DNA of 64,000 nt. It comes from Marasmius tenuissimus (Eukaryota; Basidiomycota; Agaricomycetes; Agaricales; Marasmiaceae). The position numbers and the translations under genes were made by a program. The notes below the pieces were generated by a model that did no database searches, was not told where the DNA came from, and saw nothing but the letters and a program-made list of their open reading frames with translations. Location: positions 806,001 to 870,000 of the forward strand of contig JAQOTA010000064.1 of the NCBI GenBank assembly GCA_029532415.1. The letters are read 5' to 3'. Shown here piece after piece: positions 17,803 to 42,400 of this stretch (the first letter of the stretch is position 1; each line of letters begins with the position of its first letter).

Positions 17803-18923
17803 ATGTCCTCGACGTTCTTCGCAGGTGCCAGGAATACAGAAATTGGTCCCGGGAGTAGCTTCCAAAATGTCGAAGGGGATATTCACCACCACTACATCAG
17901 TGGCGCTACCTACCAAGAGGAAGAGGAAAGCCGAGTCATGGTACGTACCGAACCCTTTAATGGATTAATTTACTCAAAACATCCATTTTGCAGCCCAGAC
18001 AAAAACGGTATCGGGAGATTTTTGAGGGTGATGTTCTACTTGGAAAGCAAACTTGGTCGCGGGAGATGGAAGTGGTGATCAGGCAGAGAGAGCCGAAGGC
18101 AAACAACACGTCATCTCGGGACGGTGGAAAAACAAGAGTTGCGGTAGTGAAGAGGTTTCACACCGCCACACTATACCCACACAGCTACACGGTTACGGTA
18201 ATGAGTTTTGAGCCAAAAGACAAGAAGAATAAGGATACTACACGTCTGGTGAGTGCAACTTTGACTAGCTATTGAGCATTAGAATGATATCCGGTCGTGT
18301 AGTTATGGGAAGAACTCTATAAGGCCTTTTCAGCTCACAGGTAAGACTCAAGTTGTTTAGGTAGGCTTGTGACCTTAGAAGGCGAGCCTAGGACACGACG
18401 GGTCATTCAGATGTTGGGATTGATGACGGCAGAGATCCCGACTTTCATCTTGCATGAAGGTGCGAAGCTCTTGAGACTGGGCTGATACCCGGGGCTCACA
18501 TCTTGAGGTACCTAGATTTAGTCAATGGAGACGAATTTACCAATTGGACACACTCGAACTCGAATCTTGTATTTAAGTACCTTCTTTATACGCAAGTAAG
18601 TACTTCAGCCTACGTTCAAACATCCCTGAAAGTGCCTTTAGGAAGCTGCAATATCCGCGCTCCGTGCTGACGAATCGATGAGGATTCCGGTGGGTTGGCC
18701 TGTCTGAGTCTTGGCGAGCTAAAAATAGCACAACAGGTTTCGCCATGGTGGGTGGATTGGACATTCAATCTCAAAACACGGACTTGGCACTACGATGCCT
18801 CCGCCTCCGTCAAACAACCATATGAAGACTACCACTACGCGCCTGCCCCACTCCCTGAAGGGCCTCTTCCCCAACTTGATGCCGACGAGATAACCACTTA
18901 CTTTGAGAACACCTTCGGCGACT
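17803..18923 (+). pseudogene. Copy B: 5' half of a family paralogue, frameshifted and interrupted by the 16.5-kb element
   Basis: ATG 17803 opens IGPGSSFQNVEGDIHHHY as in copy A. The splice pattern matches copy A through RYREIFEGDV, VVKRFHTATLYPHSY and the RxVIQMLGLMTAE exon. A one-base loss near 18466 (GCGAAGCTC where A has GCGAAGGCTC) gives TGA at 18482-18484. Similarity resumes through the WTFNLKTRTWHYDAS region and stops exactly at TCGGCGACT (18915-18923). The missing 3' half resumes at 35414. Its own promoter holds the 17165-17763 MITE. Confidence 0.85.
18915..18923. repeat. Target-site duplication (left), TCGGCGACT
   Basis: The identical nine bases recur at 35414-35422. Intact copy A has a single TCGGTGACT at the equivalent point of exon 6, which serves as the paralogous empty site. 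Confidence 0.85.
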
Positions 18924-18958
18924 GAGCCCACAGTCGATGCGTCTTTACAGGAACCGAT
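18924..18958. repeat. Left terminal inverted repeat of the 16.5-kb element
   Basis: Begins GAGCCCACAG, then TCGATGCGTCTTT, one variable base, and CAGGAACCGAT. It pairs with 35379-35413. Confidence 0.85.
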
Positions 18959-19705
18959 TCAGGAGAGGTTTTGACAGCGTAGATAATCAGAGATCCTACG
19001 TAGTGTACTTGAATGATTTTTCGGTAATTATGGCTTTATTTTCCCCACTTCAGTAATTAACTATATTCCAAAAGAAGTTGTGTCCCGCCCTGATTGTCGG
19101 GATGTATCGACCCGCCTCTTCCACCGCTTCCTCTGCGCACCTTCCACCGCGTCTATGAGTGACTTCCGTGCAGCCAGACCTAGAGCACGCAGAACACGAT
19201 ACTTGTACCCTTAATCAGTGAAGTTTTTCTGTATCTTCGTCGCGCTGAGGTCTCGACGAGTCAACGCTCACTCTCAATATTTCACAGAAGCCGTATCATA
19301 TTCGGGTTGAAGCACATGCAAGGATTCAAGAAGACAGGTCCCGAGTCAATGTTCCGATGTCAAGGGTTCTCTGGATTAGGCAGATCCACAGACATTCTTG
19401 TGGGTCACTGGGGCATACGGTACTTCCTTCCAACATTTCACAGAAGATGCCCGACGTCGGGACCTATCGCAGCGTGATTTCGACCCGAACTACCTATTCT
19501 CGGCCTTTGGGGACGTCAAAATGCTCTGGGGAACTTGGAGACCGTCAGCTGCCTATGCTGAACGACACGGAACATTGTAAGAAACGTTCTCGAGAATTGC
19601 AGGCTCGGAATTGTCAATACCGAGGCCATACGTTCCTGGTGAGTTTTGTATATCAGTAGTCAAGTTTTTGGGTTCTTTTTTTGTCTACCCTCCGTGCTCC
19701 CTATA

Positions 19706-21656
19706 ATGCCGCCTATCCGTGGTGGAAAGATCGGCCTGAACTTTTCTTGGAATGGACCTTTTCCTACTCCGCATTCATCTCAGAACGCGCGTCAACTACA
19801 GCCCTTTCAAAATTCATCTCCTCTCAACCTCGTTCTTGCTCGTGATCCTCAACATGGGTCTGCTCGCTTCAAGCAATGTCAAGTAGAAGTGCAACGTGCC
19901 CAGGCAAACCAGGCTATTCTTACTTATACTGGTAATAAGCAGTTCGCCGTATGGAAGAGGCAGGTGCTACTTTTCTCCAAGCTTGACAACAACTAATCGC
20001 GGTATTCTCAGGCCGATGGTCTTACAAGGTAGAAAGAGACGTGAAGCTAGCGCGAAATGGATTCAGGACGCCATAGCAAATGGTCCTGCTCCTGGTGAAC
20101 GGCCCATTCATCCACCTCGTTGCATTCTACACGGGCCCAACGAGTTTCACGACAGTGAACTCGAGCTGAAGTGTGGCTCAGTCGACCGATTTGTGTGTAA
20201 GGTTCCTGGGTGCTTTGTCGAATGTGAGTTCCATTGCTTGGTGGTGGTATTGAATTTGAACCCTCATTCTTCTAGTTGTACTGCCTAAAGTGCGAAAGAT
20301 GAGACAAGCCCCGGACGGTATGTGAGGTTTGGCGTATCTTCCCATTTGTTAGCTGAGATTGTTGTAGATGCAGATACCATTCAAGAACCGCTAGACCAGG
20401 ACAACGATCTGGAGGATCTCCTCACCTTCCAGGATCCAGGCGACCATCAGGTCAAGAAGGAAGTCAAGTTTTCCATCAAGGAGGAGGACGACTTTGATGC
20501 GGAGCAAGACCTCCAATTTGTACCTTCATCCCAGTCATCCTCGCTCTCTTTAGAGGACGATGGTATTGAGTTCCTCAGCATCTCTCTGTCCCCCAGTTCC
20601 TCTACTGTGCCAACCAGTTCTCCTACTAAGGCTTCTTCCCCTGCTGTTCAGTCGAAGGGCAAGTCTCGTCAGACCTCGAGAGGGGAATCGCGATTCCAGC
20701 CAGCTGCAGCAGCGCTGATGCACCTCAACAAAGGCAACGTTCGCCTCAATCCCTTGTTTCGGATGAGCGTGGCCACTTCTCGGAAGCTTATTGGTCCGTT
20801 TTCTCATACCATTGAGACTCGAGGCTTAAGTTGCATTGATGTTAGATTCAGAACTAGCAGAGCGTGTCGACCAAGACTATCTCACTGAAAGTACGTTGTT
20901 TTTTTCTAGCTTGATTTGCGCTCAGAGGTAGTTGATCGCGTATTATTTAGACCGCCACGCAGTGCACCCCGCTGAGGATCCTGCATCGTGTGAGGTCCTT
21001 GGACCTTACCGCCTTGACCGCTATCACCAGTCATTGGGCGTGCAGGGTCTTATTTGGGAGAACCTATATTCCTCCCTGACTGGTGACGCCGTTCGAGCCC
21101 TTTGTTCTCTCCTTGGAGCTCCTGAGGAGGCTATATTTGCCCTTCACCATCAGGACGTATCCTGTAACGCATGTGGTTCTCACTTCTCACTTGATGGATA
21201 CAACGGCCATGTTGTGAGTGGGAAATGCGGGAGCGTTCTTGGAGAACAGTCGAGTACGTGGTGTTTAGAACCTGTAGTTTTGTTGCTAACCAGTTGCTTT
21301 AGTACAGAAGAAGGACATCAGCCCTAACGCTGTCGAAAGCATCCCCCAGCGAACATATCCACGGGATTTTGATATCGAGACCCATCCTGGCGCACGTCAA
21401 GCGTTCCGATTCTCACTCAGATCTCCTGTTGCAGCTGCGTTCCTTGAATGGAACAGTATCATGGGTGTCCCGGCTGATGTCTGGGCAGTCATATCCACTG
21501 CTTACAAGGTTTGCGAGACCTGCAATCTCGCGAGGATATTCCCCGAGCACAAACGACACTGTGATCATGCTGGGGTGTGTATGGACCCCGGGCAAGAAGA
21601 GGTATGTGGTGTATTTAGTTTCGCAATGGTTACCAAGCCTGACTGTACGCCAGTAG
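19706..21656 (+). pseudogene. Cysteine-containing transposon ORF cluster, unknown function, apparently frameshifted
   Basis: A coding-like series starts at ATG 19706 (MPPIRGGKIGLNFSWNG). It continues through HPPRCILHGPNEFHD and KCGSVDRFVCKVPGCFVE, then a spliced acidic/serine-rich segment (EPLDQDNDLEDLL, FSIKEEDDFDAEQD) and KGNVRLNPLFRMSVATSRK. Next come VSCNACGSHFSLDGYNGH and KVCETCNLARIFPEHKRHC. CxxC pairs suggest zinc binding. The frame shifts near 20029 (a GGTAGAAAG stretch) and again near 20930, so I could not close a full model; a stop after a last intron would fall at 21654-21656. It converges on the TET/JBP-like gene with about 150 bases between them. I do not recognise the family. 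Confidence 0.4.
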
Positions 21657-21808
21657 GGTACTATTCTACATTAAACCCAACGTATAAAGACTTGCTACGT
21701 TTGACTTGTGGTCTCCATTGTGTATTGTACAACGCGTGTAACTAATACTGGGATTTGTTCGCACAAAAGGATGAAATGGACTGATAAATTCGCGTGTGGT
21801 CTGCAAAG

Positions 21809-23451
21809 CTACAAATCGGAAATAGGAACAAGAAGGTCGTCTACATTCGTGTACAGTTTAAGGCGCTCTGATACTGCTACTCTCTTCCTCGACTGAGCCT
21901 CCTTCCACTCGGCCTTGTTGGTCTCCTTGATCGACTTTTCTGTACGAAAACCATTCTCGACCCAGCGGAAGATCGCCCCTGCTGTATACTGAGTGAATGA
22001 TGTATGTGTATCGCCTATCGGATCTGTTAGTCAGGGAGCCAGATGCATTCATAGGAACGCTCACTGGGAGCAATGCGGGTGTTGAAGTGAGTCGCACAAG
22101 CGGAGGGGATAGCAGCTGACGACGCATGCGGAAAGTTAATAACAATCTTGAACTCTTTGAGGACTAGGTGTGCACTTTTGGTGGCATCGAAATGCCCCAG
22201 TGCTGTGATAACGCACAGACCAAAAGGCCAGTTCATGTGATCCCTGTGAGCAATCGTTCGTACCCGGCCTCCAAAGTTGAATGCAGATGCAGTGAATATG
22301 GAGTGTTCGAAATTCCTCGGTAATTTCGGTAGCTTGCGGTGCATGGAATCTACTGTCTCGTAGTACTTGCGGTGCAGCTGTGGTTCCCAAAGCTTGATGC
22401 AACCTGATGATTCGTCAGAATGGGAGGTAGACGCGAGGAAGATAGCTAACCGTTCTGAAACCCGTTGAGACGCTTGAGCTCCGGCATCGAAAGAAGTCGC
22501 TCGAGGACTGGCTGTACAGATTTGCCGTTCTGAAGAGCAACTGGAGTGGGGCTACCCATGCCCATGGTCACGCCGCAGTTGTAGGCTTGGAAGAACCCGC
22601 GTTTATGAGCTTCTGCGAGATCCTCCAGCCAGTTCATCGACTCCGACGCCTCCATCATGGCGTTGAAAACCTTGGTCATGTCTTCAACATAGCCCGGTCG
22701 GTTCGGACGCCCTGCAAAGAACGCCACAACCCGACCTTTACAGTCTACAACTAGCAAAGGACGTCTAGCAATGGGCATCGGTTGAGTTAAAGGGATTCTG
22801 GAAGAGGGGTAGCACTCACATCCCATCCCATGGAATATGGATGTAGCCTAGTGCTACCAGTTCCTCCAGCGTCCACTCGGGTTCCATCTCTGCCCTTGTA
22901 CCGTATGTCTTTGCCGTTCCCTTCTTCACCGTGTGTGCTCCCTTGGCGGCGTCAAAATTACCGGCGTCTTGGTTAACCCGTATCGCTTTCGCTGGACGTA
23001 GGGCTTCTTGGATTGCCCTAGAGCTCGGGGTGTAATCCTCCGGCCGTTGCTCCTTGTCTGCTTTTTGTTTCGCTTTACGGGTTTCAGTACGCTTCCGGTG
23101 GTGGTAGGAAGTGTTATTGGAGGCCGGAATTTCTTCACCGGCGGTTGAAGCCTGTGTCTGGTTAGGCAAGTCGTCGGGGCCAGAGCCTCTAACTGTATGA
23201 ACGCAGGTTCCAAGGTCTTCTGCGATGCTTTCCTCGGATTCCTCGTGCTCCCGTTCGGCCTGTGTAACCAGAGCGTCGTAGTCAAAGGAGTCTGGAAGCT
23301 GAAACACGTCAATTGGCTGGGTATCTTCCAGAAGAGGGTCCAAGGGCGGCGATTCCCCTGCGAGCCCTGGTTCCTCAACAGCAGGTGAGGCGGCTGAATG
23401 GCCTGGGGGAGTCGGGTCTATTTTCCAAGTGGTTTTGGGCTTCTGTTTCAT
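21809..23451 (-). CDS. TET/JBP-like 2-oxoglutarate/Fe(II) dioxygenase, intact (499 aa, 4 exons)
   Basis: Exons on the minus strand: 23451-22820, 22764-22451, 22403-22065, 22023-21809 (1500 nt, no stop). Residues 1 to about 205 are acidic/basic low complexity with RKRTETRKAKQKADKEQR, a likely nuclear signal. The catalytic part has FNFGGRVRTIAHRDHMNW with the Fe-binding HxD at His368/Asp370. The distal His421 is in IPSACATHFNTR, and the family-like end TSFTQYTAGAIFRWVENGF follows. Fungal TET/JBP proteins of this kind oxidise 5-methylcytosine or related bases and are known to be spread with DNA transposons in basidiomycetes. The Arg I expect just before SFTQY is His435 here (GDTHTSF), so 2-oxoglutarate binding should be checked. 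Start: first in-frame ATG; the TTG two codons upstream is not used. A fold-back repeat lies upstream at 23600-23708. Confidence 0.75.
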
Positions 23452-23599
23452 GTCCAAACCCTTTACTCGCTAGCAACACAGTCAGTAACGCGTAAAAAAC
23501 AGAATGGAAGGACCCACAGAGCGCAAAAAGTACCTGGTTTGGCGAAACATGGCGGTAGCCTATCAAAAACACGTCAGAAAAACAAAAACGCGCGTTTTT

Positions 23600-23708
23600 C
23601 CTCACCGTTGCGCGCTTTTCCTTCAATCCTGACGCTCAGTCTAGCCCCCATAGGGGCGGAGGCATGACCTGAGCGGCAGGAGTGAAGGGAAAGCGTGCAA
23701 CGGTGAGG
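23600..23708. repeat. Inverted repeat upstream of the dioxygenase gene
   Basis: Arm 23600-23624 (starts CCTCACCGTTGC) pairs with 23684-23708 (ends GCAACGGTGAGG) at about 22 of 25 positions around a 59-base loop. It lies about 150 bases 5' of the gene start. It could be regulatory or a small transposon relic. Confidence 0.65.
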
Positions 23709-23890
23709 AAACGGGCAGACGGCGCCTACCTGGCTGGGAACACGATGGGAGCTACGAGAAAGAACCAGAACTTGGTCCCATTCAAAACAAACACGTACAC
23801 GTGCCGTTGCTGCGCAGCTCGGTAACGGGCGCTTGTTGTCTCTTCACTCCGAACCACCGCGACGAAACACCACGCTAGCTCAAACGAGGG

Positions 23891-24050
23891 TTTGGCCGCC
23901 GATTAGGCTTGGTGGCCGGGCCCGATACTGAGCTTTACTCAATATTTGACAGAGCTTTGCCGGTCACATACCTCTGCGGGATTCCATCTGAACCCTCGCG
24001 TCGAAACAGGTTTGGCCGCCGATTAGGCTTGGTGGCCAGGCCTGATACTA
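23891..24050. repeat. Two direct copies of a 40-base unit spaced 120 bases apart
   Basis: 23891-23930 and 24011-24050 share TTTGGCCGCCGATTAGGCTT and GGTGGCC(G/A)GGCC(C/T)GATACT. The second copy abuts the start of the sirtuin fragment and may mark a capture junction. Confidence 0.8.
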
Positions 24051-24065
24051 GGATTTTCTCAAAAA

Positions 24066-24990
24066 ACTACACGGCACACTCCATGTAAGTTTCCCCTTTC
24101 GATCCGAACGCCAACAACAATAACCTTCTTCATAGCGCGTTCGCTGCAAACACGGTCACATAGTCGACAGAGACACCTTCCAAGATTGGTTATCCGAAGC
24201 CAACCCTCAAAGGTACTCCTTCGCCGCAGAGGTAGAAAACTCTGGCGAAGCACTCAGGACTAACCCCAATGGTGACATTCGTATTTCGTATTTTTTCTCT
24301 TTTCTTTCGAGACTTGAGCTGATACACCCCATTACACGCTCACAGGTTGCTATAGAACACCTAGGCGTTTCGTACCACGAATTCGTGATACCCGAGTGTC
24401 CCACTTGTCTCAGCGAAAACAAGATGAACAACGCGGTATGGTTTCTTTCTACCTTGTAAACCAGCTAGCATTTTGGTTGACTCTCTCTCCCCAGCACAAA
24501 CCCGACCTAGTCTTATTCGGAGAATCACTCCCAGAGGAGGTCAGATCCCGGTCGTAAGAAGCAAAAAACGAAACAGAACGTATACCACAGGAACACTGAC
24601 TATCTACAACCACAGCTTCCAAAACGTCAAACAAGCCGATAAACTACTCCTGATAGGAACAACGCTCGCTACATACTCTGCTTTCAGGTACATACCTCCC
24701 CTCCTCCCCTCCCCCTCCCCTCCCTTCCTTCCCCCGACCCAATCCAAAACCGATAGACTACTCAAACGCGCCATCGACCTCAAAAAACCCGTCCTAATGG
24801 TAAACGTCGGACCTTCCCGAGCCGACGACGTCCCAGGCGTCGAAAAGCTGGACATCTCGAGCGGGTTGATTATACGAGATGTTGTTAGGAACGTTTTGTG
24901 TAGGTCGAGCGCCAGTTTTGGTCCCCCGACTTCCTCCCTACGTATAGCGGGTTCCCCTCCGCCGATTAGCGTAATTCTTTTTTTAATGGA
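24066..24990 (+). pseudogene. Sirtuin (SIR2-type NAD-dependent deacylase) gene fragment
   Basis: Exon pieces with introns still present read LHGTLH, an intron to 24135, then RVRCKHGHIVDRDTFQDWLS and EANPQRYSFAAEVENSGEAL. Next come HEFVIPECPTCLSENK (second zinc CxxC), HKPDLVLFGESLPEE, KQADKLLLIGTTLATYSAF and KPVLMVNVGPSRADDVPGVE. These are the zinc module and C-terminal Rossmann half of a class II/SIRT4-like sirtuin. The N-terminal half, with the GAGxS and catalytic His region, is absent, and a stop follows PEEVRSRS. Retained introns show capture from genomic DNA rather than from mRNA. Non-functional. Confidence 0.75.
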
Positions 24991-24999
24991 CAAGTAGAA

Positions 25000-25890
25000 C
25001 CCAGTAGATAACTATTCAAGCCTCCGATTGTCCGATATCGTCCATATTCTGATAGATCGCGAGGTCGACATTGCGCGGTCGAAGTGCCGGTAATTGCCGG
25101 ACTGGGAAAATGTTTGATCTCGTATATGGGGAACGAATGCTCGCCTCGTCACCGGATATACCGGTTTTGAGATCCTGAATTGACACCTTACAGACGGTGT
25201 ATAGCCCATTGAAATCGGCGAGGAACTGAACGAGCAACGGTGGTAGCTCTCCTGACCCGGGCCAAATCCACCCACAGCCACTCACCCCGAAATTAGTTTG
25301 GCTTGTATAACGGGTTTTTCTGCATCGTTATGGATGTCCAGCGGCGCAAATGAAAGCTATGAGATCTACAAACAGAACGGTAAGTTCTATATGGCTCAAC
25401 GTTCAAATAAAAATGTGCCAGGCCCTCAACACGTGAACCCGGCATTTTCACCACCATCAACGTATGTTGGCTCGTATAGTGGAATAAAGGCACGAGTAAA
25501 AAAAATCGAGCGAGCAGGACCTTTAGATTTTTATTCAGGCTTTCAGACGCTGCACGACGCTTCCCAATCCGTTCAGTATTCGTAGCACAGTGACGATCTC
25601 TTTTTCGACCTCCCTCACAGCCACCCCAGCCAACACATACCGAAATATCTCCCAGCTCTCATCACATCGTTGATCCCAGAAGCCCCCCAAATCAAATATG
25701 TTGATCTTTTTCTACATTACTAGCTTCCCTATGGCCGGTGAGTTGAGTTGCAGAGGGTAGTTGCGGGCGGTTGCAACTGGTTGCAACCGTCCGCGGATAT
25801 CCGCAACTACACAACAGTTGTTTGTTGTTACTCTCGAGCAATTATACGCGACTTTTTTCGTTCTGATTTCGTTTTTACACACAGTCTCAA
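25000..25890. other. Unassigned cargo segment
   Basis: A short minus-strand open stretch (25285-25012; contains GSGELPPLLVQFLADFNGLY) and a plus-strand one (25340-25585) look like gene scraps, but I recognise neither. A tract of TTGCAACTGGTTGCAACCG-like repeats lies near 25765-25790. Confidence 0.3.
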
Positions 25891-25899
25891 TAGGATAAC

Positions 25900-26830
25900 T
25901 ACTCTACATCAGGAAGCCGACGGTACAAGTCATAGAAAGTGATAATGAATCGGATCGGATTGGGTACATCCTCCAGGTTCCCCATCGGCTGGCTCAGCCA
26001 CTCACACAACTCTCGTATGGTTCTCCAGCGTACCCCTAGCACCCTACCAATCCCATCCATGAAGGTCTCTCCTTCTGAATCCTTCCCCTGTCGGCCAAAG
26101 ATAATCGCAATAATCCAGGGTAGGACTGGGAAATGTTCGCCAGTCGTTGAGTCGAGCGGGCGGAATGAACATTTTTCCGCATCAATCCGCTGGTTCGGGG
26201 TCGGTGGAGGATGGTTGAACGGCTGCCGGAGAGGAACCCAACAGAGGAAGCAATACGGCCAGTTATTGTTGTAGGGCAACTGGAGTCGACGAATTTGATT
26301 AAGATGTGTTCTGAAGAACACGTTTCGGTCGTGAATAGTAGAGTCAGTGTGAATATGACCCAGGACCCAGCAATCGACACAGCTGACGTCTACGACACGC
26401 TCTAGGACGCGTTTCAGGACATTGAGCTGGTCCTTTCCCTTGTCGAAACGTGACTCTATATCCATCGCGTTCGTTTCGACGGAGGCAGCTACCTCAGCCA
26501 CAACCGGCCCTTTTTCGGCGTTGGGAACAGGGACCAGAGGTTTGTCGAACCTCGCTCGATCAGCAGGTGTATACCCATACGGAGTCTAAAACACGTTAGC
26601 GATAGAAACAACGCTGAAAAACAAGCCGAGTACTCACGTTGGCCATTCGCTCACAATTACTACAAAGCTCACCGTTCAGAGCTACACAGGAGTGAGATTC
26701 ACGGTCTAGGCAAGCAAAAGAAAGCCGTAGACAGTCTCTCGTCTGTAAAAACTCCCGCATCTCAATTCTCCCCTCGTGGTCGACAATACTGGGGTCTTTC
26801 GGGAGTGTTGGCAATCTCCACCAGAGAGTT
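25900..26830 (-). pseudogene. RecQ/telomere-linked-helicase-like C-terminal tail fragment
   Basis: The minus strand reads [19 protein letters not shown].., [17 protein letters not shown], an intron near 26590-26640, then YGYTPADRARF, VSCVDCWVLGHIHTDS, WPYCFLCWVPL and WIIAIIFGRQGKDSEGE, ending LYRRLPDVE. Paired cysteines ([21 protein letters not shown]) resemble the zinc-binding tails of fungal RecQ-like helicases found near telomeres and in mobile DNA. No helicase motifs are present, so it is at best a 3' fragment. The family call is tentative. Confidence 0.4.
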
Positions 26831-26895
26831 ACGCATCTCGAAGGAAGACCTACTCATATGACCGAACGTCATTGTGACCTCTTCATTCTTCGAAA

Positions 26896-27453
26896 ATGGC
26901 CGAGCAACCTACCAAACAAAAGTTATGGGGTGGAAGATTCACTGGCAAGACTGATCCTTTGTGAGTTTTGTACCGACCATGTGATGATTCCTTATGCCCA
27001 TGTTGTCAGAATGCATGATTTCAACCAATCGTTGCAATATGACCAGAGGATGCATGCATCCGATATTAAAGGCTCTATTGCCTACGCGAAAGGACTAAGA
27101 CGCGTCGGGATTTTGAACGAAGATGAAGAATGAAAGATCATCGGGGGATTACAGGCTGTCGGTAAAGAATGGGAAGATGGAGTCGTATGTAACCTCCATA
27201 ACAAACCGAGTTTTACGCTGACGCGCTCCAAAGTTCAAGGTGCAACCAGACGATGAGGACATCCATACTGTTAACGAGCGCAGGCTGAGCGAACTGATTG
27301 GGCCGCTCGGCGGAAAACTGCATACTGGGCGATCTCGAAACGATCAAGTTGCCACCGACATGCGACTATGGCTTTTGGAGGAGATCAAAGAAGTCCGTAG
27401 CGGTTTGATGGGCCTCATCCGTGTGCTAGTGGAAAGGGCCGACAAAGAAAAAG
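26896..27453 (+). pseudogene. Argininosuccinate lyase gene fragment (5' part only)
   Basis: ATG 26896 starts [20 protein letters not shown]. It splices over 26961-27009 to [14 protein letters not shown] and [20 protein letters not shown], and over 27187-27233 to [31 protein letters not shown] and [17 protein letters not shown] follow, the unmistakable argininosuccinate lyase N-terminal domain. Argininosuccinate lyase makes arginine and fumarate in arginine synthesis. An in-frame TGA lies at 27131-27133. Similarity ends at LVERADKEK (about 27453), where a minisatellite begins, so the catalytic Ser loop and two-thirds of the enzyme are missing. Introns are retained. Clear captured host-gene pseudogene. 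Confidence 0.9.
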
Positions 27454-27456
27454 CAA

Positions 27457-27860
27457 ACGCTGGCAGGGAACACCTCGATTCCCTGCTGGCACCTCGACCG
27501 TTACGACGCCGCTGGGTCAAAGTAAAACAAAAAAAGAAGAAAACTCTCGAATATACGAGAGACACACCCCACGCCGGCAAGAGACACCTCGATCTCTTGC
27601 TGGCACCTCGACCATTGCGACGCACGGTGTGCAATGAAAGGTAAAGAAAGAAACTCTCGAAAATACGAGAGACACACTTCACGCCGGCAGGGAACACATT
27701 GATTCCCTGCTGGCACCTCGACCGTTACGACGCGTGGTGTGCAATGAAAGGTAAAAATCTCGAAATACGAGAGACACACCCCGCACCGGCAGGGAACACC
27801 TCGATTCCCTGCTGGCACCTCGACCATTACGACGCGTGGTGTGTAATAAAAATAGAAAAA
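27457..27860. repeat. Minisatellite, about four 102-114-base units
   Basis: Units begin near 27461, 27575, 27683 and 27786. Each holds CCTGCTGGCACCTCGACC(G/A)TT and, between units, a short palindrome CTCTCGAATATACGAGAG or its variants, plus an inner dyad GGGAACACCTCGATTCCC. A further fold-back lies at about 27896-27980 (GTTCGATACC..GGTCGTTCGAC). The array begins where the argininosuccinate lyase similarity stops. Confidence 0.8.
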
Positions 27861-28140
27861 AGTGAAAAAAGTTTGAGAAAACAGCTCATTACCCTTTTGT
27901 TCGATACCACCACGGTCTTCAGTGTAGGAGAGAGTCACCTCGGACTCTCTCAAACACCTCGGTCGTTCGACACTGAAGGGTGATGGCGGTAAAGAACAAA
28001 GAGGCGACGTGTCACACGCAGTGACATGTAACGATATATCAACTTCTGGTCATGTGACCTGTCAACACGCGTCGCGTGTGCTTTTTTCACGTGTTCCTCT
28101 CTTTCTTCTTTACCACCACCACTACTGATTCTTCTTCAAC

Positions 28141-29996
28141 ATGGTAAGTTATCTCACACATTCTTAATCCAATTCTATTATTTATGTTTATTGTAGGCCA
28201 GAACCAAAGGCAGGGGTAGACGCAGGGGCAAGGCTGGTGTTGTTAAACAGACAGCACAGAAATCCACTGGAGCGCCAGCCCCACGCGTTCCTTTGGGCAT
28301 TTCTACCGTCAAAGCATCACCTCCTCTCAAGTCTGCGAAGAAGGGCGGGAAAAAGCCGATTCCAGCCAAACGAGATATCAATTTGAAGGCTCCCCAGCCA
28401 AAAATCAAGATGCACGGGGCGACCATCCAACACCTTTCCGGGGCGATGGGTTTCAGTGTTCTCATCACGACCAAGATGGGAGTTGAGCTCTACACCGAAC
28501 AGCAATTTCTTGAAAATAACGAGAATCCTCCGGTTAGATTACAGGTACGTTTCAAATTTCCGGGTTCGTATCATTTCTAAGTGCGACTATAGCATTGTAT
28601 CACCTGCAATCATGGCGGGAAACTGATTGATTGCGACCACTGCATGGGCGCTGTATGCTGTCAGTGTCTGCCAGATGCCATCGTTCAGAGACTTGACGAA
28701 GGGGCGCCTCTTGGGTACTTCATGTGCCCGCGATGCCATGCTCAAGAATACCCTACGAAACCATACAAGGTAAAATCTTGACATTGCATAGCTCCGAGTA
28801 TGACTCAATGTTCCACACAGGGATTCGATCTTCTCAAAGAAACTCTGTTCTTGCAACGCGGCTCAACCTATCGCACCAGAACAGTTGACCCTATTATGGG
28901 GGCCACCCTCGTACTCTTCATATACTTGAAGGACCCAGTTGTGAAGCCTGGCGTGGTTCTGGGCGCGATTCATCCTCTCAAGATTTGGGCTGCTGATGAC
29001 TTGGTCTATTGTGCCGTTCCGTTCGATTTCAAAGACGACACTAGCGACTACTTGGAGGCCATGAACGACGTTGTCAACCAACTCCAAGATGGCGTACTAC
29101 AACGGTATGTTCTGTTTGACATCTCCACAATTCTCTGCATCTGAGATTACACAGTGTCAAAAAAATTGTGGTGGTTGTCTCGACGCATACCGACCCAGAG
29201 AGGGGGGACTTCCATATTATTCCTGACTGTGGCGGAAGCGTTCCTTTTGACGAGGTAAATGATATCACCTATTGTTCTTCACGTTTCTCATTTATCCTTC
29301 AGCTTGCGAATGTCCTCTTTCCAGAAGATCTCCGGGTTCAGCTACGGGCCCGGGGCTTCTGGAGTCAGTTGGTATTGCTGGCCTGCGGTTCTTTTTGGAG
29401 GATGCGAGAGCCTGTTACGCAGATTTTTGACTTTGTCAAAGAGTGCGAGCTATCTTTCTGTCCCTTGTTTATTTTGTTTGTCTAATCACAACTGTAGCAT
29501 TGGCTTTGATCATGCTCTGGGATTTTCTGCACAGAATCTTCAGACTGCTCTCACCACAGCGTTCGTCCAACACGCCCTTGAGAACTTTGTCATTCACGGG
29601 GATCGTCGAACTATTATACCCATCCTTCTAGAGCACTCGCGCACTGGTTCCCACAGTGAAATCATCTCGTTGAACCCTTTCACCAAGGAAATCCTAGAGT
29701 TTCTATGGCATCACCCACTCATGAGCCCATTTGGAGACCCTAGCTTGCTTCACGCTCAGTGTTCCAAGTGCGGTGTACTCTCGCCATGGGTGAATGTCGA
29801 CTGCAGACCTGGGAGCGACAGCATTCATCGGCTCACTGTTCAGTGCAAACATTGCCATGAAACTCAAACCATCGATCGTCCCGCTGGTCTAAGGAAGGTA
29901 ACTGGTGGAGGAGACAATGCTAGCTACCTCAGACATAGTACTGGAGATTGGATGGTACGTACTATTGAGATAGAGAAGTTGCGTTCAGTAGAGTAG
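28141..29996 (+). CDS. H3-tail-like / PHD-like zinc finger / caspase-CHAT-like protein (516 aa, 7 exons)
   Basis: Exons: 28141-28143 (ATG alone), 28197-28544, 28593-28769, 28821-29104, 29155-29254, 29303-29442, 29498-29996; 1551 nt, no stop before TAG 29994-29996. The first residues read MARTK, a 12-residue basic insert (GRGRRRGKAGVV), then KQTAQKSTGAPAPR. This matches histone H3 A1-K4 and K4-R17, with R8 changed to Q and K14 to P. A Lys-rich linker follows. Residues 118-176 form a PHD-like finger (CITCNHGGKLIDCDHC, VCCQC, CPRCH) with Cys where PHD usually has His. Residues about 185-370 look caspase/CHAT-like: beta strand IVVVVS then THTD (His282), and LVLLACGSF (Cys332), 50 residues apart. 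A CxxC zinc ribbon (CSKC..CKHCH) precedes the C-terminus. Possible roles: binding or decoying H3-tail readers, with a peptidase. Function is inferred, not shown. Confidence 0.75.
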
Positions 29997-30220
29997 AATG
30001 ATCGTACCGTATTTTCTTGACACGAATCCAATATGTTCATTGGGTTACCCATTTCTATCAGCGCTTATTGTCCCGAAATAACGAATCTAGTCTAATTGAA
30101 GAATCCTGTCAATCAAAAGAAGCGTTATTTCACACGACTCGGACTTTAGGGTGGACAGTCCGATTTTTCAGGGTCTATCACCCCCATTCCCCAATCTTTT
30201 TATTTCCTTTCACCCCCATC

Positions 30221-31547
30221 ATGTTCCCAGTCGCTCAAACGTACCTCGACCGAACACTGTGCCTGTTCGATATGCCTTGCTATAGTGCAACGAAACGTCA
30301 ACGCCCATCCATCCAATCTAAAGCAGCTGAAGTGGAAAATCAGGCAGAAGATCAACAACTCACTGTGAATAACGAGGTTCTGTGCATTCCAGCAAGCATA
30401 CAGACACCTACAGAGATTCTTGAAGAGATCCTGTACACGGCTATTGTATCTAGCAACACCAGTCACGATGCACGCAACATCCTACTTGCATCAAAAGTCT
30501 GGTCACAGGTGTGAGTTTTCTCGCGTTTCAACGTGTTTTCTCGTGTTTCGACGCGTTTTATAGTGGATTAACGCGTTATTTTGGTAGTTCCAGGATCAGA
30601 AACGCGATGTACCGCAACATATCTGTCAGAAACCCACGGTCCCTTCATTTGCTGCTCCTGAAACTGGAGTCTGACCCTGAGAATCTCCTTCCTCTCATCT
30701 ATTCCTTCACTGCGATCATTGAAGACGGTTGGGTTTCTGAGCCCCTCCAGTGTGCACAGGATGCTACGATTCGTTCGTACGCTGATCTTTACACCAGTCA
30801 CGACGATGTGCCGGGCTCTGCTCTGGCCTCCATCCTCATTCTACTTTCGAAATCCCCTGCAAAAGTAGAATCACTTGTTCTCAATGCAGCACGTCCTACA
30901 CCTCTCATGCGAATGGTCATCAATATGCGTACTTTCTCCACAATCACCCATCTCGAGGCCCCAGTCGAGTTTGTCACTATCCAGCGTGACTGGCCTGCTC
31001 TTATCACGCTCCGGGTGTGGTACACTGTCAGTCGCGAGACAAATGTGCTACTCGAATCCCCTGACTTTTCCCATCTATCATCTCTCCAAAGGATGCATGT
31101 CATGTACGATGGGTTCGAAAAGTGGGACCTCACACCTTCTATCCGCAATATGCGCCTCCCTGCGTCGATCCAGGCAGTTGCACTTGATCTTTCATGCGGT
31201 CAAAAGGTCCCGATCTCTTGGAGTACCTTGGAGAGCTTTATTCTCAATCCAAAGGTTGTGTTTGTTTGGCTACGCTCACTGTTTCCCGGCTTGTGTCCTC
31301 ACGTTTTTCATAGGTTGTCTTTGTCATTTCTGACCCCGAGTTGGTTAGTGCGATGGGGGTAGTAGTTGAGTACGGGGATTGGTCGCAGGAGCTTTATGAT
31401 GCCGCAGTGGATGTGACGTTTGTTGCCCCACTGAGTATGGGCTCATTCTGGGAGAGCCTCGAGGAGAAGGTTGATGCACGTCTTTTGTATGCAAAAGCAT
31501 GCTCTCACAACTCTCCTGACCACCCCTTGCTTGTTGAAAAGGTTTGA
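30221..31547 (+). CDS. F-box-like protein (396 aa, 3 exons)
   Basis: Exons 30221-30510, 30588-31254 and 31314-31547 give 1191 nt without a stop. After a charged N-terminus the motif IQTPTEILEEILYTAI.. resembles an F-box (IPxEILxxI). ILLASKVW and a long Leu-rich region (FSTITHLEAPVEF, LSSLQRMHVMYDGF, VVFVISDPELV) follow, as in the large basidiomycete F-box/LRR-like families that recruit substrates to SCF ubiquitin ligases. It lies 225 bases after the H3-tail-like gene on the same strand and runs toward the transposase gene. The second intron uses a GTTGTG donor. The F-box call is moderate; the splicing is well supported by phase. Confidence 0.6.
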
Positions 31548-31623
31548 GTTTACAATGAATATGTTTTTCTTGTCCGAAATGTTGTTTGCGCACATGTATC
31601 AGTCTGTAAAGAATGAATGTATT

Positions 31624-34600
31624 CTACGAGTCCTGAAAAACAATAGGGATATACTTTCCGCTTCCCTTCTTCAGCTCTGTTGCGCTCCCGGAAATTTTTA
31701 CGAGTTCATCCTTCATCTTATTCCACTTCTCACGATGCTCCGTCATCTTTCTCCTTGCTTCATGAATCTCTTCCATAGGCTTACCCAGCTCAACAACTCG
31801 CTTCAATTTCGCATAGAGTGCATTACCTCTTGTTTGTGCACTGGTGAACTTGTCGTATGCTTTCTGTACCTTCGTATTGTGCTTGAGAATCTGATCGTCT
31901 TCCTTGTTGATCATACGATGGTCCTTGTTGTCTGGATTGTGATGAGTGAGAGGTACACTAGAAAAGTAATGGTGCTCACTCTTTCGCTTTATTGCACGAC
32001 ACAAATTGTCGACTTGATGTCCTGTTGCATACGATGGACGGACCCCTGCCTCCTCAAAAGACTAGACACATATTTAGCTTTGCCCGATAGTTGAAAGAAA
32101 GGAAGCTCACCCGAAGCTTGGCCAACTTGGTTGCATCGTAGCGTCGCCCTTTCTCAATACCTCCCACCAGAGTACACGATTTGCCTTCAAGGTTGACATT
32201 TGAGTGGGACGACTCTACTATGTTGTCGTTCTGATCACCGGCCATCCATATGTACTTTGGGATCTTGCTCTTCTCCCAGCAGACAGCTTCAAGCGCAAAC
32301 TTGCTCTGAATCTTGTTCTCTAGCCAGTCTAGAATTGTATTGTTAGTCCACGGCACCAATTCACAGGTGAATACTCCTACCAACACCAGCACGACCTCCA
32401 TCATTTCGTATTGTCTCCAAAGCTTCATCCCAACTCTCATGCTCCATACATGCAAGCCCTCTCATTGCCTCACGAGCAGGCGGCGGAACCTTGCACTCCT
32501 GAATATTCCGACAGAAGTGTACGAGGCACAAACGGAAGATACGATGGAGATGGTCATAAGGACTGAGGTCCTTCAGTTGCTTGTTCTCGTATAGATCTCG
32601 CCCATCAAGACTTTGGCATATCGACTGAAGGTGTAGTCCAAGACCTATAGGTTGTGTTAGCATCATCCTTGTCGCTTGAATGTGGGCAGTACCCTTGGCC
32701 TGCCCTCCATGCTGGTCGCCAGTCCACATCAAGACCAACCCTTGTTGATCACTTTCATCGTTTGATGGTGCGTATATGTGCCTCCAAGGAATTGGCCTCC
32801 CGGTGTCCTCTTTGACTGTCTTCTCGATCTCTTGAAATATCCGAAAGTGAGCGAAGGCTGTCTCACGAGTAACATACACCCGGCAATAGACAACCGCTAC
32901 AGACAGCTTTAGTATGAGAGTCATGAATCACAAACTCTACTTACCTGCATTCGTGTCTCGGTCACATCCAGCTATGATGAACTCTTTCCACCCATTGAGC
33001 CTCTTGAATGAAATATCGCTCTGAAGGTATTGCCCAGACTGAATAAGCCGTTGGCTACCTTCCTTACTCATACACAAGATAATCCGTAGGTCGTCGGTGC
33101 AACCGTCGTCACTATCATCTTGCATCTGATCAACAGGAACGTGGATGATGCTCCGGATGTACTGATCATCCTCTCCGTAGCGCTCGAGATGACACTTTTG
33201 CAAGTGTAAGGCGCCTAAATTCCTCTTTAAAATAGCCATAGACATTCTCAAACATTTGGCTCACCTTCCCATCCAGTACCCGTTGGAAAGACTTCCTTCT
33301 TGGCCTGCTTGATGTATGAAGCAATGTGGGCGTGATTGGCAAGCAACACATGTATGTCACTGATTGAGGCAAGAGAATCATTCGGAAACAGGGCCCGAAT
33401 GTGCGAGTGAACGACAGGGTGGCGGATAAACCCACGAGCTGTAAGGTCAGCAAGATCCTCACCGACATTTCGGAGTATGTCAAATATTCGAGAACGTAGC
33501 TTCGGCGGAGTTTTGTTGGGGAGGGGAATGGGGTGACAGTGTACTCCTTGAACAATGATCAAGACGTATGGACAGTCCTCACGGTAGTCCTCGAGAGGTT
33601 CATATATCTTGAACTTGACATCACACTTGAGGTGCTCCATGAGAGGTTGATAGAGATCCCCGGTTTCGGGGTCACGGTGGGAGTGTGCTGTTAAAGTAAG
33701 CGTCAAGAAATATTGACACTATAAGTAGCAACTCACGGCAGTTGAAGCGTTGAGCAGAGTGGTTTGTGACGATATTGCACGTCCTAGCAGGTCCTACGTT
33801 GTGTTCTATGTCAGCTTCTTCCTCAATGGCCCGTGCAGTGTCTAAATCGCCAGTAAGAACAGCCTTGATGTATTCATTGTGGTAAGAATCGTCGAGGCGC
33901 TGGTGGAAATGAAGACGGGAGTTATGCGAGTCGTAATATTCGCATCTTGAGCATACAAATCAGCGTTCCCTCCCGAGGGTACGTGGAATGGGAAGCTCAC
34001 GAAACACTTGGGTGACCTGCCTAATCAAAGGAAAAGACGACCTTGCCAGAACAACGCGTCACCTTGTCGACGTACCCTCGCTGAAGTTGCTCGTGGTGTT
34101 TTGTGAGAAACGAATCACCGGTACGTTGTTCACCTTCCACCTGCATTCGACACCCGAGTCACTGTAGTGCAGTCACATAGCTAGACGTCTTCTGGAAGAT
34201 ATCTCTTGATGGTGAATCGTAGTTCAATCGATGGTCCCTGTCCTGAGTGAGTCATTGCTTGAGTAACTCCCGCGACGCCTTGGTATGTGGAGTTTTCATC
34301 TCGTCAAGATCAGAAAACGGACAAATTTTGACTCCTTGACCTAGTAATACTGTAAGAACGCAAGTACACCAAGGCTCGGGACCACTAACAGGTTGAATGC
34401 CGACTGATGCATGGTATAGCGCCTTGTCCCATGAGTGGGTGAGTGATCAGATCGCCATTGTGCTTCTTTTTGAGTGATCCTGAAGGCTTTCCAAGAGAAT
34501 ACACAAAGTTATTCCACGGATGGTCCCAGTTTGATTCGTCGCGTCGCAAGAGATATCCAATCCCGCGGGCTGAAGTTTCCGGGTACTCAATGTATGTTTC

Positions 34601-35014
34601 AGGGTCTTCGTAGAGGTACAACCGGTCTAAACAGGTCTTGTTTGAGACCACGACATTTTCCCGGACTGATTCGGGCGTCCATAAGACCCCAGAGTACACT
34701 GAGCGACCAGGGCTGGAGGAGATGCTGCGAGTAGGGGAAGGGGTCTGAATTGGAGTAGAATACGCATGGGGTACAGGAGTCACAGGGGTCACAGGTTGAG
34801 TTGGGGAAAGTAGCTGCTGGAGAACACGCAAATCATTCTCTGAGGCGCGTACATCCTGTCCAGACTGAAGCTGAGAGTGTAGATTTTGAACAATACGCCG
34901 AATTTCTCTCTGTGGAGGAGTTTCAGGGGTTTGAACAGACAGCGGGATCAGAGAATTTGAGGTAGGATTTGTTTCCTGTGGCGCGGGGTTCAAGAGAGAC
35001 ACGATTGGGATCAT
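31624..35014 (-). CDS. Mutator-like (MULE) DDE transposase; core intact, N-terminal region uncertain
   Basis: Core exons on the minus strand: 33945-33737, 33687-33265, 33214-32945, 32896-32693, 32644-32381, 32328-32111, 32061-31624 (TAG), all in phase. Motifs: CEYYDSHNSRLHFHQRLDDS, VLIIVQGVHCHPIPLP, YLQSDISFKRLNGWKEF (first Asp), WTGDQHGGQAKG (second Asp), LCLVHFCRNIQE and NDNIVESSHSNVN (candidate Glu). A coiled-coil-like basic end follows. These fit the MULE DDE fold. An upstream exon (35014 to about 34388; proline-rich, then ESNWDHPWNNFVYSLG) and pieces such as GVKICPFSDLDEM and SGVECRWKVNNVPVIRF belong to the same gene. Between 33950 and 34390 I meet stops I cannot splice around, so the N-terminus may be broken. 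It lies at the right end of the element whose TIRs it presumably recognises. Confidence 0.65.
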
Positions 35015-35378
35015 CTTGGGCAGTAGGGGACAAAGATGAGGAGAGAGGGGCTTGAGGGATTGAAGTATCTGGTACCACAACTCCAAGAACAAAGATTCGG
35101 ACGCGACTGCAAGCAGACAGAACTTCTCGGGACTCGGAAACGACAGATTGACAGGGCGGGCTACGGGAAGGAAGTATGTGCCCCAGTGTGAAGGATGTGA
35201 AGGAGTAATCCAGAATATCACACCAATATCACATTCTCAGTCTAACTACTTAGCTAGACACAGCTGTCATGCTAAGGGACTTAGCAGGTTTTCGGGACCT
35301 GTGCAGCTTGATCTTATCTACTAAGGTACGTCACATCGTTTGTCTTATCTGCCAAATCAGAGCTTCCGATGCCTCCAT

Positions 35379-35422
35379 ATCGGTTCCTGAAAAGACGCAT
35401 CGACCCTTCCCTCTCGGCGACT
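35379..35422. repeat. Right terminal inverted repeat (35379-35413) and target-site duplication (35414-35422)
   Basis: The reverse complement starts GAGGGAAGGG, then TCGATGCGTCTTT, one variable base and CAGGAACCGAT, pairing with 18924-18958. TCGGCGACT follows directly, and then the interrupted gene resumes. Confidence 0.85.
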
Positions 35423-39455: not shown

Positions 39456-42400
39456 TCAAGTGGACGAATAGAATTCAAGTCCAAGGTGATCTCTGAACCG
39501 TAAGAACTTCTCATGTCCAAGATTCTTCGTAAACATGTCTGCAGGATTATAGACTCCTTCAATAAAGTACAACTCGACTTTGCCATCTTCAACACACGAT
39601 TGAATATAATGATATTGAATATTGATGTGTTTGGTTCGGCGTTCTTGAACCGGATTAGATGCAATGAAGATAGAGCCCTGATTGTCTCCACAGATTGGAA
39701 TAGGACCCAAGTTGATTCCAAGTTCAGAGAGTAGTGATCTTATCCAGGAAGCTTGACGACCGCAATCTGACAGTGCCATATACTCAGCTTCAGTGGAAGA
39801 AAGAGCTACAGTCTTCTGGGCGTGTGATTGCCACGAGAAGATGCCGCCTGCTAACTTGAAGAAGTAGCCAGTGATCGAACGGCGTTTGATAGGATCGGCA
39901 GCCCAATACGAGTCTGTGAACGCAAGAAGACCTCCATCAGAGTCACCATCGTAGACGAGTGAATAATCTGATGTGCCAGCAAGATAGCGGCAGATGTAGA
40001 GTGCTTTATTGAGGTGTTCCTTTGTTGGATTAGAAGAGAACTGGGAAAGCTTTGTAACTGCATAGGCAATATCAGGACGTGTACCCAGCATTATGTACAG
40101 AAGCGACCCAATCACAGACTGGAATCTGGAGGGAATGGCAGGATTGACTGGACCATCATTGGGAGTTGGCACATAGCCAGCAGGTAAGGGCGTTGGAGCA
40201 CCTTTTGCATTCTGCATCCCAAAATGTTCAAGGACTTTCTTAAGATAATCCTTCTGGTCAATCATGATCTTATTGCCTTCGCGACGAATGCTCATGTGGA
40301 GAAACTCGCTAGCATTGCCCATATCGCGGCATTCCCATCGAGTCATGAACTCGGCTTTCTTCTTGTCAACAAAAGCTTTGTTAGGACCCATGAAGAGTGC
40401 ATCGTCAACGTATATGATCGCATGCACAACTTCACCACTCTTCGGATCTTTGCAGATGAAGAGTCCAGCATCAGAAGTTAGACGTTTGAAGCCTAGTACT
40501 TCCATGGACAAGCTGAGGGTTCGCCACCATTCAAGGGCAGCTTGCTTCAGTCCATATAATGCACGACGCAGGCGTAGTACCTTATGTTCCTGGCCCTTGA
40601 CTTTGAAGCCTTCAGGTTGTTCCATGTAAATCTCCTCAACAAGATCGCCATAAAGGAAGGCGTTCTTAACATCAACAGAGGTGATGTACCAGCTCTTGAG
40701 AGCTGCGAGAGCAAGCATTATACAAACAGTCTCATAACGAACAACTGGTGAGAAGATCTCATCGAAGTCTACACCTTCGACCTGAGAGAAACCTTTGGCA
40801 ACAAGTCTTGCTTTCTTGCAACCATTCGACTTAACGTCGAAGACCCATCTATTTCTGATGGCTTTGCGACTTTTAGGCAAGTCACAGAGTTTGAAGACCT
40901 TGCGCTTACAAAGGGCCTCAAGTTCTTCGTGGCAAGCGTTCTTCCACTCCTTCTGTTGCTCGACAGGCAACTTTAGAATATCGCGGAGTGTCCACTCTCT
41001 GATGTTAGAGAAATCAGGAGTATCAGACGTTGGAAGCGAATCGTGAACTGGAACAGCATTGTTCAACAGGTAAATCACGAATCCTACTCCCCCTTCTTGG
41101 GTCAGTCTTTTGACTACGCTTTCTTCCTCATGCGACTCAGTGCTTCTACTGGGTTCTGGAGCAGGTGGAGGCGGAAGTGGACCAGGAATCCCCTTTTTAC
41201 CACTTTTGCCTTTCCTAGATCGCAAAGAGCTAGGACGATCAACTGGATGTGAAGGTTCTTTGTCTTCAGTGACGTTTCTCCAAGTATTTTTATTCTCTAA
41301 GTCGCGAATAATATCTGAGGGTTTATTTGGGTTCCGCTTTTCCCCAAAAATATTACCAGGTTGCGTTGTACCCTTCCGCTGCCTTGAAGACCGGCATGGA
41401 CCATCTGCTGCTGGTGCAGGCGGAGGAACGGCGGGTTCGCCTGGAGGTGTCGGAGGACCAGATTGAGGGAGTGGGACATCCCCTGGCGCAAGGCCACCTG
41501 CAGGTTCGTCAACCTGAGGTTCTGATCTCTTAGAAGGTTCGGAGCAACGTCTGAGGTCTGGCAATGGAGTATCAAAACCGTCGTCATCAGAGTCTTCATC
41601 TTCTGAAGGAATGTTGGGATTTTCACCCAAAGTAAATGGTTCACTACTGATAGGTGTGAAGCCACGAGTTTTGGCATCAGGACATTTATTGTATAGCGTC
41701 TCATCGAATAGTGCAGTGCTACCTTTGAATACAGAATTATTACTTTGCATGAACAGGAAGCCTTTCATCCCATCCTGGTAGCCGATGAAAGTCATCAACT
41801 CACTACGAGGAGCGAGTTTATTCTTCCTACGATCTTCAGGAATGAAGACGTAGGCTGCGCAACCCATAACTCAGAGATGTGACACATCAGGTGCTTCGCC
41901 GTAAAGCATTTTGAACGGAGTTTGCCAGCTCAAGCGTTGCACAGGAGTGCGATTGTAGAGGTGGACGGCGTGCACATGGCAGAATTCCCACCAGGACTGT
42001 GGCATGCAAGCTTCAAATCGAAGAGCTTCAGCCTTCTCATGAATAGTCCTGTTGAATTGTTCAGCACGACCATTTTGTTGTGGTGTGTACGGTATGCTTT
42101 GATCCCTTTGGATCCCATACTCTTTCAGTACTGCATCGAACTTATCTCCTTTGTACTCTCCCCCTTCATCGGACATCCAGGTCTTGACAACAGCATTGAA
42201 CTGCGTCTTGACCATAGTAAGGAAGTCCCTCAAAGCAGGTACTGCCTCGTCTTTTGTCTTGAGCTTGGAGGTCCAAACGTAGGACATGCAGTCATCGAGA
42301 AAAGAGATGTAGTACTTGTACCAGTGATACAATTCTGCCGGGTACAACTTCAGATCCAAATGTATGTGTTCAAACGGTTTAGAAGCTCTTGTTGTAGAGT

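Follow-up and report, generated by a model that had tools for sequence, protein, structure and literature searches.

Why should a fungal DNA transposon carry a protein that begins like histone H3? The question is raised by a 64,000-nucleotide stretch of the Marasmius tenuissimus genome (assembly GCA_029532415.1, contig JAQOTA010000064.1, positions 806,001 to 870,000 of the forward strand), referred to below as the window, whose own numbering is used throughout. A gene at positions 28141-29996 (+) encodes a protein with an H3-like N-terminus, a PHD-type finger and a C-terminal domain. We lean, if only slightly, towards its product being a transposon-borne decoy of the H3 tail, equipped with its own H3-type reader, that would interfere with chromatin, probably against silencing. 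All gene copies compared below come from this one genome.

A transposon-borne gene that begins like histone H3

The gene model rebuilt from the sequence has seven exons and a product of 516 residues. It reproduces exactly the model of an earlier sequence-only reading, including a first exon made of the ATG alone, the MARTK start and the 12 residues that precede KQTAQKSTGAPAPR. All introns are GT-AG and 48-55 bp long, the single weak donor being GTGCGA at 29443. Exon 1 (28141-28143, +) consists of the initiator ATG, directly followed by GTAAGT. Exon 2 (28197-28544, +) encodes the H3-like tail and a basic linker. Within this exon, codons 2-31 (28197-28286, +) form the H3-tail mimic and read ARTK, an insert and KQTAQKSTGAPAPR. 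The basic insert comprises 12 residues (residues 6-17, 28209-28244, +).

A six-frame search with the window protein, which gives lower bounds for copy counts, detected at least seven gene copies in three lineages: the window copy with C5 and C69, C2 with C23, and C7 with C54. The C2 and C7 proteins share 42% and 45% identity with the window protein, and their open spliced models have 490 and 481 residues. The frame is interrupted by a stop in exon 2 of C23, a stop in exon 7 of C54, about 518 bp inserted into exon 2 of C5 and a one-base deletion in exon 2 of C69. A C-terminal gene fragment was found at C37:1138709-1139064 with the C7 and C2 queries. In all seven copies the ATG runs straight into a GT donor; the intron that follows measures 52-57 bp, and its acceptor abuts (A/P)RTK. 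The M(A/P)RTK start, as in H3, is present in each of them. This comparison of copies establishes the gene model and its splice pattern.

The sequence-only reading had described a tail close to H3 residues 1-17 but split at K4. The likeness holds, and the mimic is conserved in three diverged transposon lineages, whereas the split is restricted to the lineage of the window, C5 and C69. The tail reads MPRTKFNAKKTTGAPAPTK in C2/C23 and MARTKQTSKKSTGAPAPHK in C7/C54, the latter having MARTKQTSKKSTG without insert. The insert is absent in C2, C23, C7 and C54, so that a derived origin of the split is probable. No other part of the protein is as conserved as the tail: 11 of its 17 ungapped columns are invariant among the window, C2 and C7 proteins. 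The linker has 11 invariant columns out of 69, the PHD finger 17 out of 57, and the remaining protein 23/96, 29/78, 27/84 and 22/71.

With the insert omitted for counting, the window tail matches H3 residues 1-17 at 14 of 17 positions, C7/C54 at 12 and C2/C23 at 9. Out of 1,000,000 shuffles, none reached the first two values and 54 reached the third. These shuffles, together with the retention of the tail in three lineages, led us to reject a chance likeness to H3. A profile of the three proteins matched H3 chains in the PDB from the start of H3, with E-values from 4e-6 to about 3e-5 among the best 60 of 195 matches, and some of these alignments extended to profile position 83. A mere effect of lysine-rich composition was rejected, since a profile of the linker only, which is shorter and has somewhat less power, gave no PDB match at E up to 10. 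No histone fold was found behind the tail: the linker-only profile is unmatched, and the Pfam scan of the window protein gave no match even at E up to 10, including no histone domain. We also rejected that the tail is simply exon 1 of a host H3 gene, because none of the four host H3 genes inspected, among five H3-like loci found, has an intron after the ATG. In the host H3 gene L049 (C5:3529300-3529830) an intron falls directly behind K4, at the site of the window-lineage insert, which may be a coincidence.

The positions of H3 that are kept are R2, T3, K4, K9, T11 and G12, while R8 is replaced (by Q, K and K). Because R8 is lost and the others are kept, K9-directed modification seems less likely than recognition of the N-terminus and K4. 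In the window lineage only H3 residues 1-4 are contiguous; this suggests, therefore, that A1-R2-T3-K4 would be the essential epitope.

The gene is kept under purifying selection. Between C2 and C23, dN/dS was 0.097 (489 codons), and codons 1-19 showed no nonsynonymous change over 43.3 sites versus two synonymous changes over 13.7 sites. For exons 3-7, with 399 codons in each comparison, the ratio was 0.077 between the window and C5 and 0.173 between the window and C69. Codons containing a stop or gap were left out of the counts, and comparisons of the window with C2 and C7 gave no ratio, being saturated synonymously. One 517-bp repeat (97.7% identical) is found in two element copies, in exon 2 of C5, within the H3-like tail, and upstream of the gene in C69.

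The sequence-only reading had called the protein transposon-borne, and this is upheld by terminal inverted repeats (TIRs) and by a target-site duplication (TSD) of 9 bp without mismatch. The gene lies in a complete DNA transposon of 16,490 bp (18924-35413). The TSD, TCGGCGACT, is identical at 18915-18923 and 35414-35422, and the 26-nt cores of the TIRs (18933-18958, +, and 35379-35404, -) are 96% complementary. DNA homology to C5 and C69 begins at 18924 in both, and homology to C5 stops at 35413. A separate 9-bp duplication, AATCGATCC, flanks the C5 element. In C69 the match to the window stops at 34672, and the right end of that copy was not found. When lengths of 8, 9 and 10 bp were tried, a perfect TSD was observed in all six copies with both ends located, with 9 bp in the window, C5, C54 and C7 and 8 bp in C2 and C23. 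The C2 and C23 elements measure 11.0 and 11.3 kb. The C54 and C7 elements (C54:70429-84672 and C7:1751023-1765253) are 14.2-kb copies with a tail free of insert; they are 99.2% identical and have differing 9-bp duplications, so that recent transposition of the insert-free element can be deduced.

Mutator-like elements (MULEs) have TIRs and a TSD of 8-10 bp, and so does the window element. We call it Mutator-like because of its 9-bp TSD, its TIRs and the relatedness of its cargo gene to those of C2 and C23. In the C2 element, the MULE transposase domain PF10551 scores 32.9 bits for a cut-off of 27.6, and the C23 element also holds a PF10551 match above cut-off. In the window element, transposase-like open reading frames (ORFs; 31624-33959, -, exons approximate) have relatives in the C54 and C7 elements (32-43%). 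The joined piece gave no relevant Pfam match, and its position is not among the 25 PF10551 matches listed.

The PHD finger and the C-terminal domain

Exon 3 (28593-28769, +) encodes the finger, residues 118-176. Eight zinc ligands, C119, C122, C131, C134, C139, C142, C162 and C165, follow in C4-x-C3 order with the spacing of a PHD finger, and all of them are invariant in the window, C2 and C7 proteins. In the PDB, the three-protein profile matched PHD fingers of the H3K4 type (BHC80, CHD4 and AIRE). The AlphaFold2 (AF2) model of the finger shows a PHD fold with a pLDDT of 87. Comparison of this model by Foldseek and VIA-align placed the BHC80 PHD finger (2puy) first, among ties, and the matches listed in a second structural comparison are PHD/ADD-type chains. 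The Cys cluster noticed in the sequence-only reading can thus be described as a PHD-type finger. It is most like the readers of unmodified H3K4 and may, by this likeness, bind the unmodified H3 N-terminus.

The domain that follows, residues 177-436, begins in exon 4 (28821-29104, +) and has no family assignment. Exon 5 (29155-29254, +) contains the THTDP motif with the His282 codon at 29186-29188, exon 6 (29303-29442, +) the invariant LACGxFW motif with the Cys332 codon at 29384-29386, and exon 7 (29498-29996, +) the end of the domain with a WHHP motif, the zinc-ribbon-like C-terminus and the stop. Invariant residues among the three proteins are T281, H282, D284, P285, G288, F290 and H291, and further L330, A331, C332, G333, F335, W336, H356, H384, H397, H403 and W421-H-H-P424. 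The placement of His282 and Cys332, 50 residues apart, is confirmed. The caspase/CHAT-like fold that had been proposed around them found no support in profile, PDB and hhalign searches. Residues 177-436 gave no relevant match in Pfam, NCBIfam or the PDB, with chance-level hits only (an antibody with an E-value of 1.7 and a cytochrome model with one of 6). At E<=10, Pfam detected neither PF00656 nor PF12770 in the three members scanned, and whole-genome scans for the CHAT and C14 families made no call at this locus. Alignment by hhalign to the genome's own CHAT and C14 stretches, a weak comparison with single hand-joined templates, gave probabilities of 0.2% and 0.6%. AF2 applied to exons 4-7 of the C7 copy, with introns retained and 11 rows, yielded a mean pLDDT of 38. 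At the C-terminus, the CxxC pairs C439/C442 and C467/C470 (29760-29855, +) are present and invariant in the three proteins. They fit a zinc ribbon, as the sequence-only reading had it, and one of three members weakly matched an Elf1-like Zn ribbon (E 0.13).

Proposed decoy action and its alternatives

How could such a protein act? We propose that its N-terminus would imitate H3 residues 1-12. An initiator methionine is usually removed before Ala or Pro, and its removal here would expose a free (A/P)-R-T-K end to proteins that grip the unmodified N-terminus of H3. The tail would most likely compete with nucleosomal H3 for host readers, erasers or writers that help to silence the element. The PHD finger would bind either the tail of the protein itself, as a self-locking switch, or chromatin H3 at the element. 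The sequence-only reading had likewise suggested that the tail might bind the protein itself and that H3K4/K9 machinery might be sequestered. The C-terminal domain, with its invariant His and Cys residues, may be an effector enzyme.

Several observations weigh against this proposal. The frame is open throughout in only three of the seven copies (window, C2 and C7), and the C7/C54 comparison gave a dN/dS of 0.309, resting on 14 changes. As single sequences, the C7 and C2 proteins match H3 only with E-values of 0.039 and 0.28. Scans of viral and prokaryote contigs for relatives outside this genome returned 54 and 103 pattern matches, none of them confirmed. As for the finger, the canonical His at the fifth ligand (C4HC3) is replaced by Cys139, a substitution that we take to occur in ADD-type fingers. 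PF00628 stays below cut-off (22.9 versus 24 bits for C2 exon 3); it weakly matches two of the three full proteins, with a best E of 0.0081, and leaves the window protein unmatched. At E<=0.001, Foldseek returned nothing for the finger, a short domain. Finally, the window protein has Q117 and K127 near the PHD finger where C2 has E, at positions that presumably contact K4 in AIRE and BHC80. With the insert after K4 and these two residues, the window copy may therefore bind H3 poorly.

Could the tail instead serve only the protein itself? It would then fill the pocket of its own PHD finger, in cis or between monomers, and regulate the C-terminal domain or polymerise, leaving host factors untouched. 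Tail and H3K4-class finger do occur together in all three lineages found. Moreover, the tail of the window lineage is altered after K4 and acidic residues are missing from its finger; the two could have changed together if these residues have the roles that we assume for them. Three lineages are however too few to prove co-change, and conservation extends past K4 to K9-S/T-T11-G12-A-P-A-P, beyond the needs of a reader of residues 1-4. We regard self-locking alone as unlikely. Another possibility is a peptidase, in which residues 177-436 would form a caspase/CHAT-like enzyme with His282 and Cys332 and would cut a chromatin protein, tail and finger bringing it to H3-binding proteins. T281, H282, D284, P285, G288, A331, C332 and G333 are indeed invariant in the three proteins, the His-Cys spacing is 50 residues, and by eye the order strand-His...strand-Ala-Cys is reminiscent of clan CD. 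Yet Pfam, NCBIfam and the PDB hold no relevant match, the hhalign comparison to CHAT and C14 fails (weakly, with one template each) and the AF2 model of C7 exons 4-7 is useless. We consider a peptidase quite improbable.

The protein might also be an adaptor, its PHD finger reading host H3 and steering the element or proteins to chromatin unmethylated at H3K4, while the basic, H3-derived N-terminus would be an arm for binding DNA or nucleosomes or for nuclear import. The class of the finger and the basic character of tail and linker are consistent with such a role, as is the capture of H3 by fungal transposons (PMC6710886). A basic arm, however, need not keep R2-T3-K4...K9-x-T-G across such diverged lineages, nor would it require an exposed Ala or Pro and a first exon reduced to the ATG. 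In addition, Pfam sees no histone domain in the window protein, and an intron after the ATG is lacking in the four inspected host H3 genes. We hold the adaptor to be decidedly improbable.

The favoured decoy reading can be compared with known proteins. Viruses and a few host proteins are known to mimic histones. The N-terminus of PAF15 and the SNAG domains of Snail and GFI1 provide V/P-R-T/S-type ends that occupy binders of the H3 N-terminus such as the UHRF1 PHD finger and LSD1. Unlike the window protein, these are cellular proteins with a shorter likeness to H3 and with no known PHD finger in the same chain. The PHD fingers of PHF21A/BHC80, CHD4 and AIRE and the ADD domains of ATRX and DNMT3 resemble the window finger in sequence and predicted fold, the window having Cys at the His ligand; we know of no H3-like tail in these proteins. 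The nearest worked-out logic is that of DPPA3 (STELLA), which removes the UHRF1 PHD finger, a reader of the H3 N-terminus, from chromatin and lowers DNA methylation in a TET-linked pathway (PMC7686362). There, as proposed here, a PHD finger reading the H3 N-terminus is drawn off chromatin. DPPA3 is however a mammalian host protein whose binding has been shown, whereas the present protein is transposon-borne, carries its mimic at the true N-terminus together with its own PHD finger, and would bind by prediction. Likewise, hAT transposons of Dothideomycetes have captured histone H3, the H3 sequence in P. fijiensis being ruined by RIP (PMC6710886). Both cases place an H3 sequence on a fungal DNA transposon, but the hAT elements took the H3 coding sequence itself, whereas here a tail likeness is fused to a PHD finger and another domain and kept under purifying selection. 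Searches of open-licence papers for histone mimicry, or for transposons that have captured H3, listed no transposon-borne H3-tail mimic.

If the reading is correct, transposons would bring a new weapon to their conflict with host silencing, in which a conserved H3 mimic at the N-terminus is coupled to a finger of the H3-reader type. Whether a mobile element can free itself by a false H3 tail thus becomes a testable question. The tail could also serve as a natural decoy peptide for identifying the readers of the H3 N-terminus that drive fungal DNA methylation.

A dioxygenase-like gene and other features of the window

The element also holds a candidate TET/JBP-like dioxygenase gene (21850-23469, -), 50-74% alike to ORFs of the C54 and C7 elements. 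We take its HRD...H motif to be the TET/JBP-type dioxygenase pattern, and HRD and the downstream H are conserved between the window and C54 ORFs. Searches of the TET-like ORF against Pfam and the PDB gave chance-level rows and no relevant match, and a TET-like match was not found in the C2 and C23 elements. The genome matches the SRA family at six places (five above cut-off) and the C5-methyltransferase family at five. It is conceivable, if doubtful, that fungal DNA transposons evolved a dedicated histone-mimic protein against silencing, with a fake H3 N-terminus, an ATG-only exon, its own reader and possibly a His-Cys enzyme, which would act beside a TET-like dioxygenase against H3-guided DNA methylation. 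TET+ fungal DNA transposons carry an epigenetic gene to which a role against silencing is ascribed (PMC12730594). The candidate TET-like gene is what the window and C54/C7 elements share with them; Mutator-like elements are not among the lineages listed there as carriers of TET, and the main text of that source does not contain the words 'phd', 'mutator' or 'mule' (PMC12730594). Beside the TET-like gene lies an inverted repeat (23597-23711) of 43 nt, 91% complementary, with a 29-nt gap.

An argininosuccinate-lyase-like gene fragment is found within the element at 27228-27452 (PF00206, E 8.6e-18). Neither C5 nor C69, as aligned, has an equivalent of the stretch that holds it (24068-27451), and the fragment is therefore probably a captured piece of a host gene. 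Just upstream of the H3-like gene, at 27446-27864, a tandem repeat of about 110 bp occurs in four copies and is matched in C5 and C69. The window further contains a Ty1/copia-type reverse transcriptase ORF of 804 residues at 39456-41870 (-) (RVT_2, E 9.7e-66).
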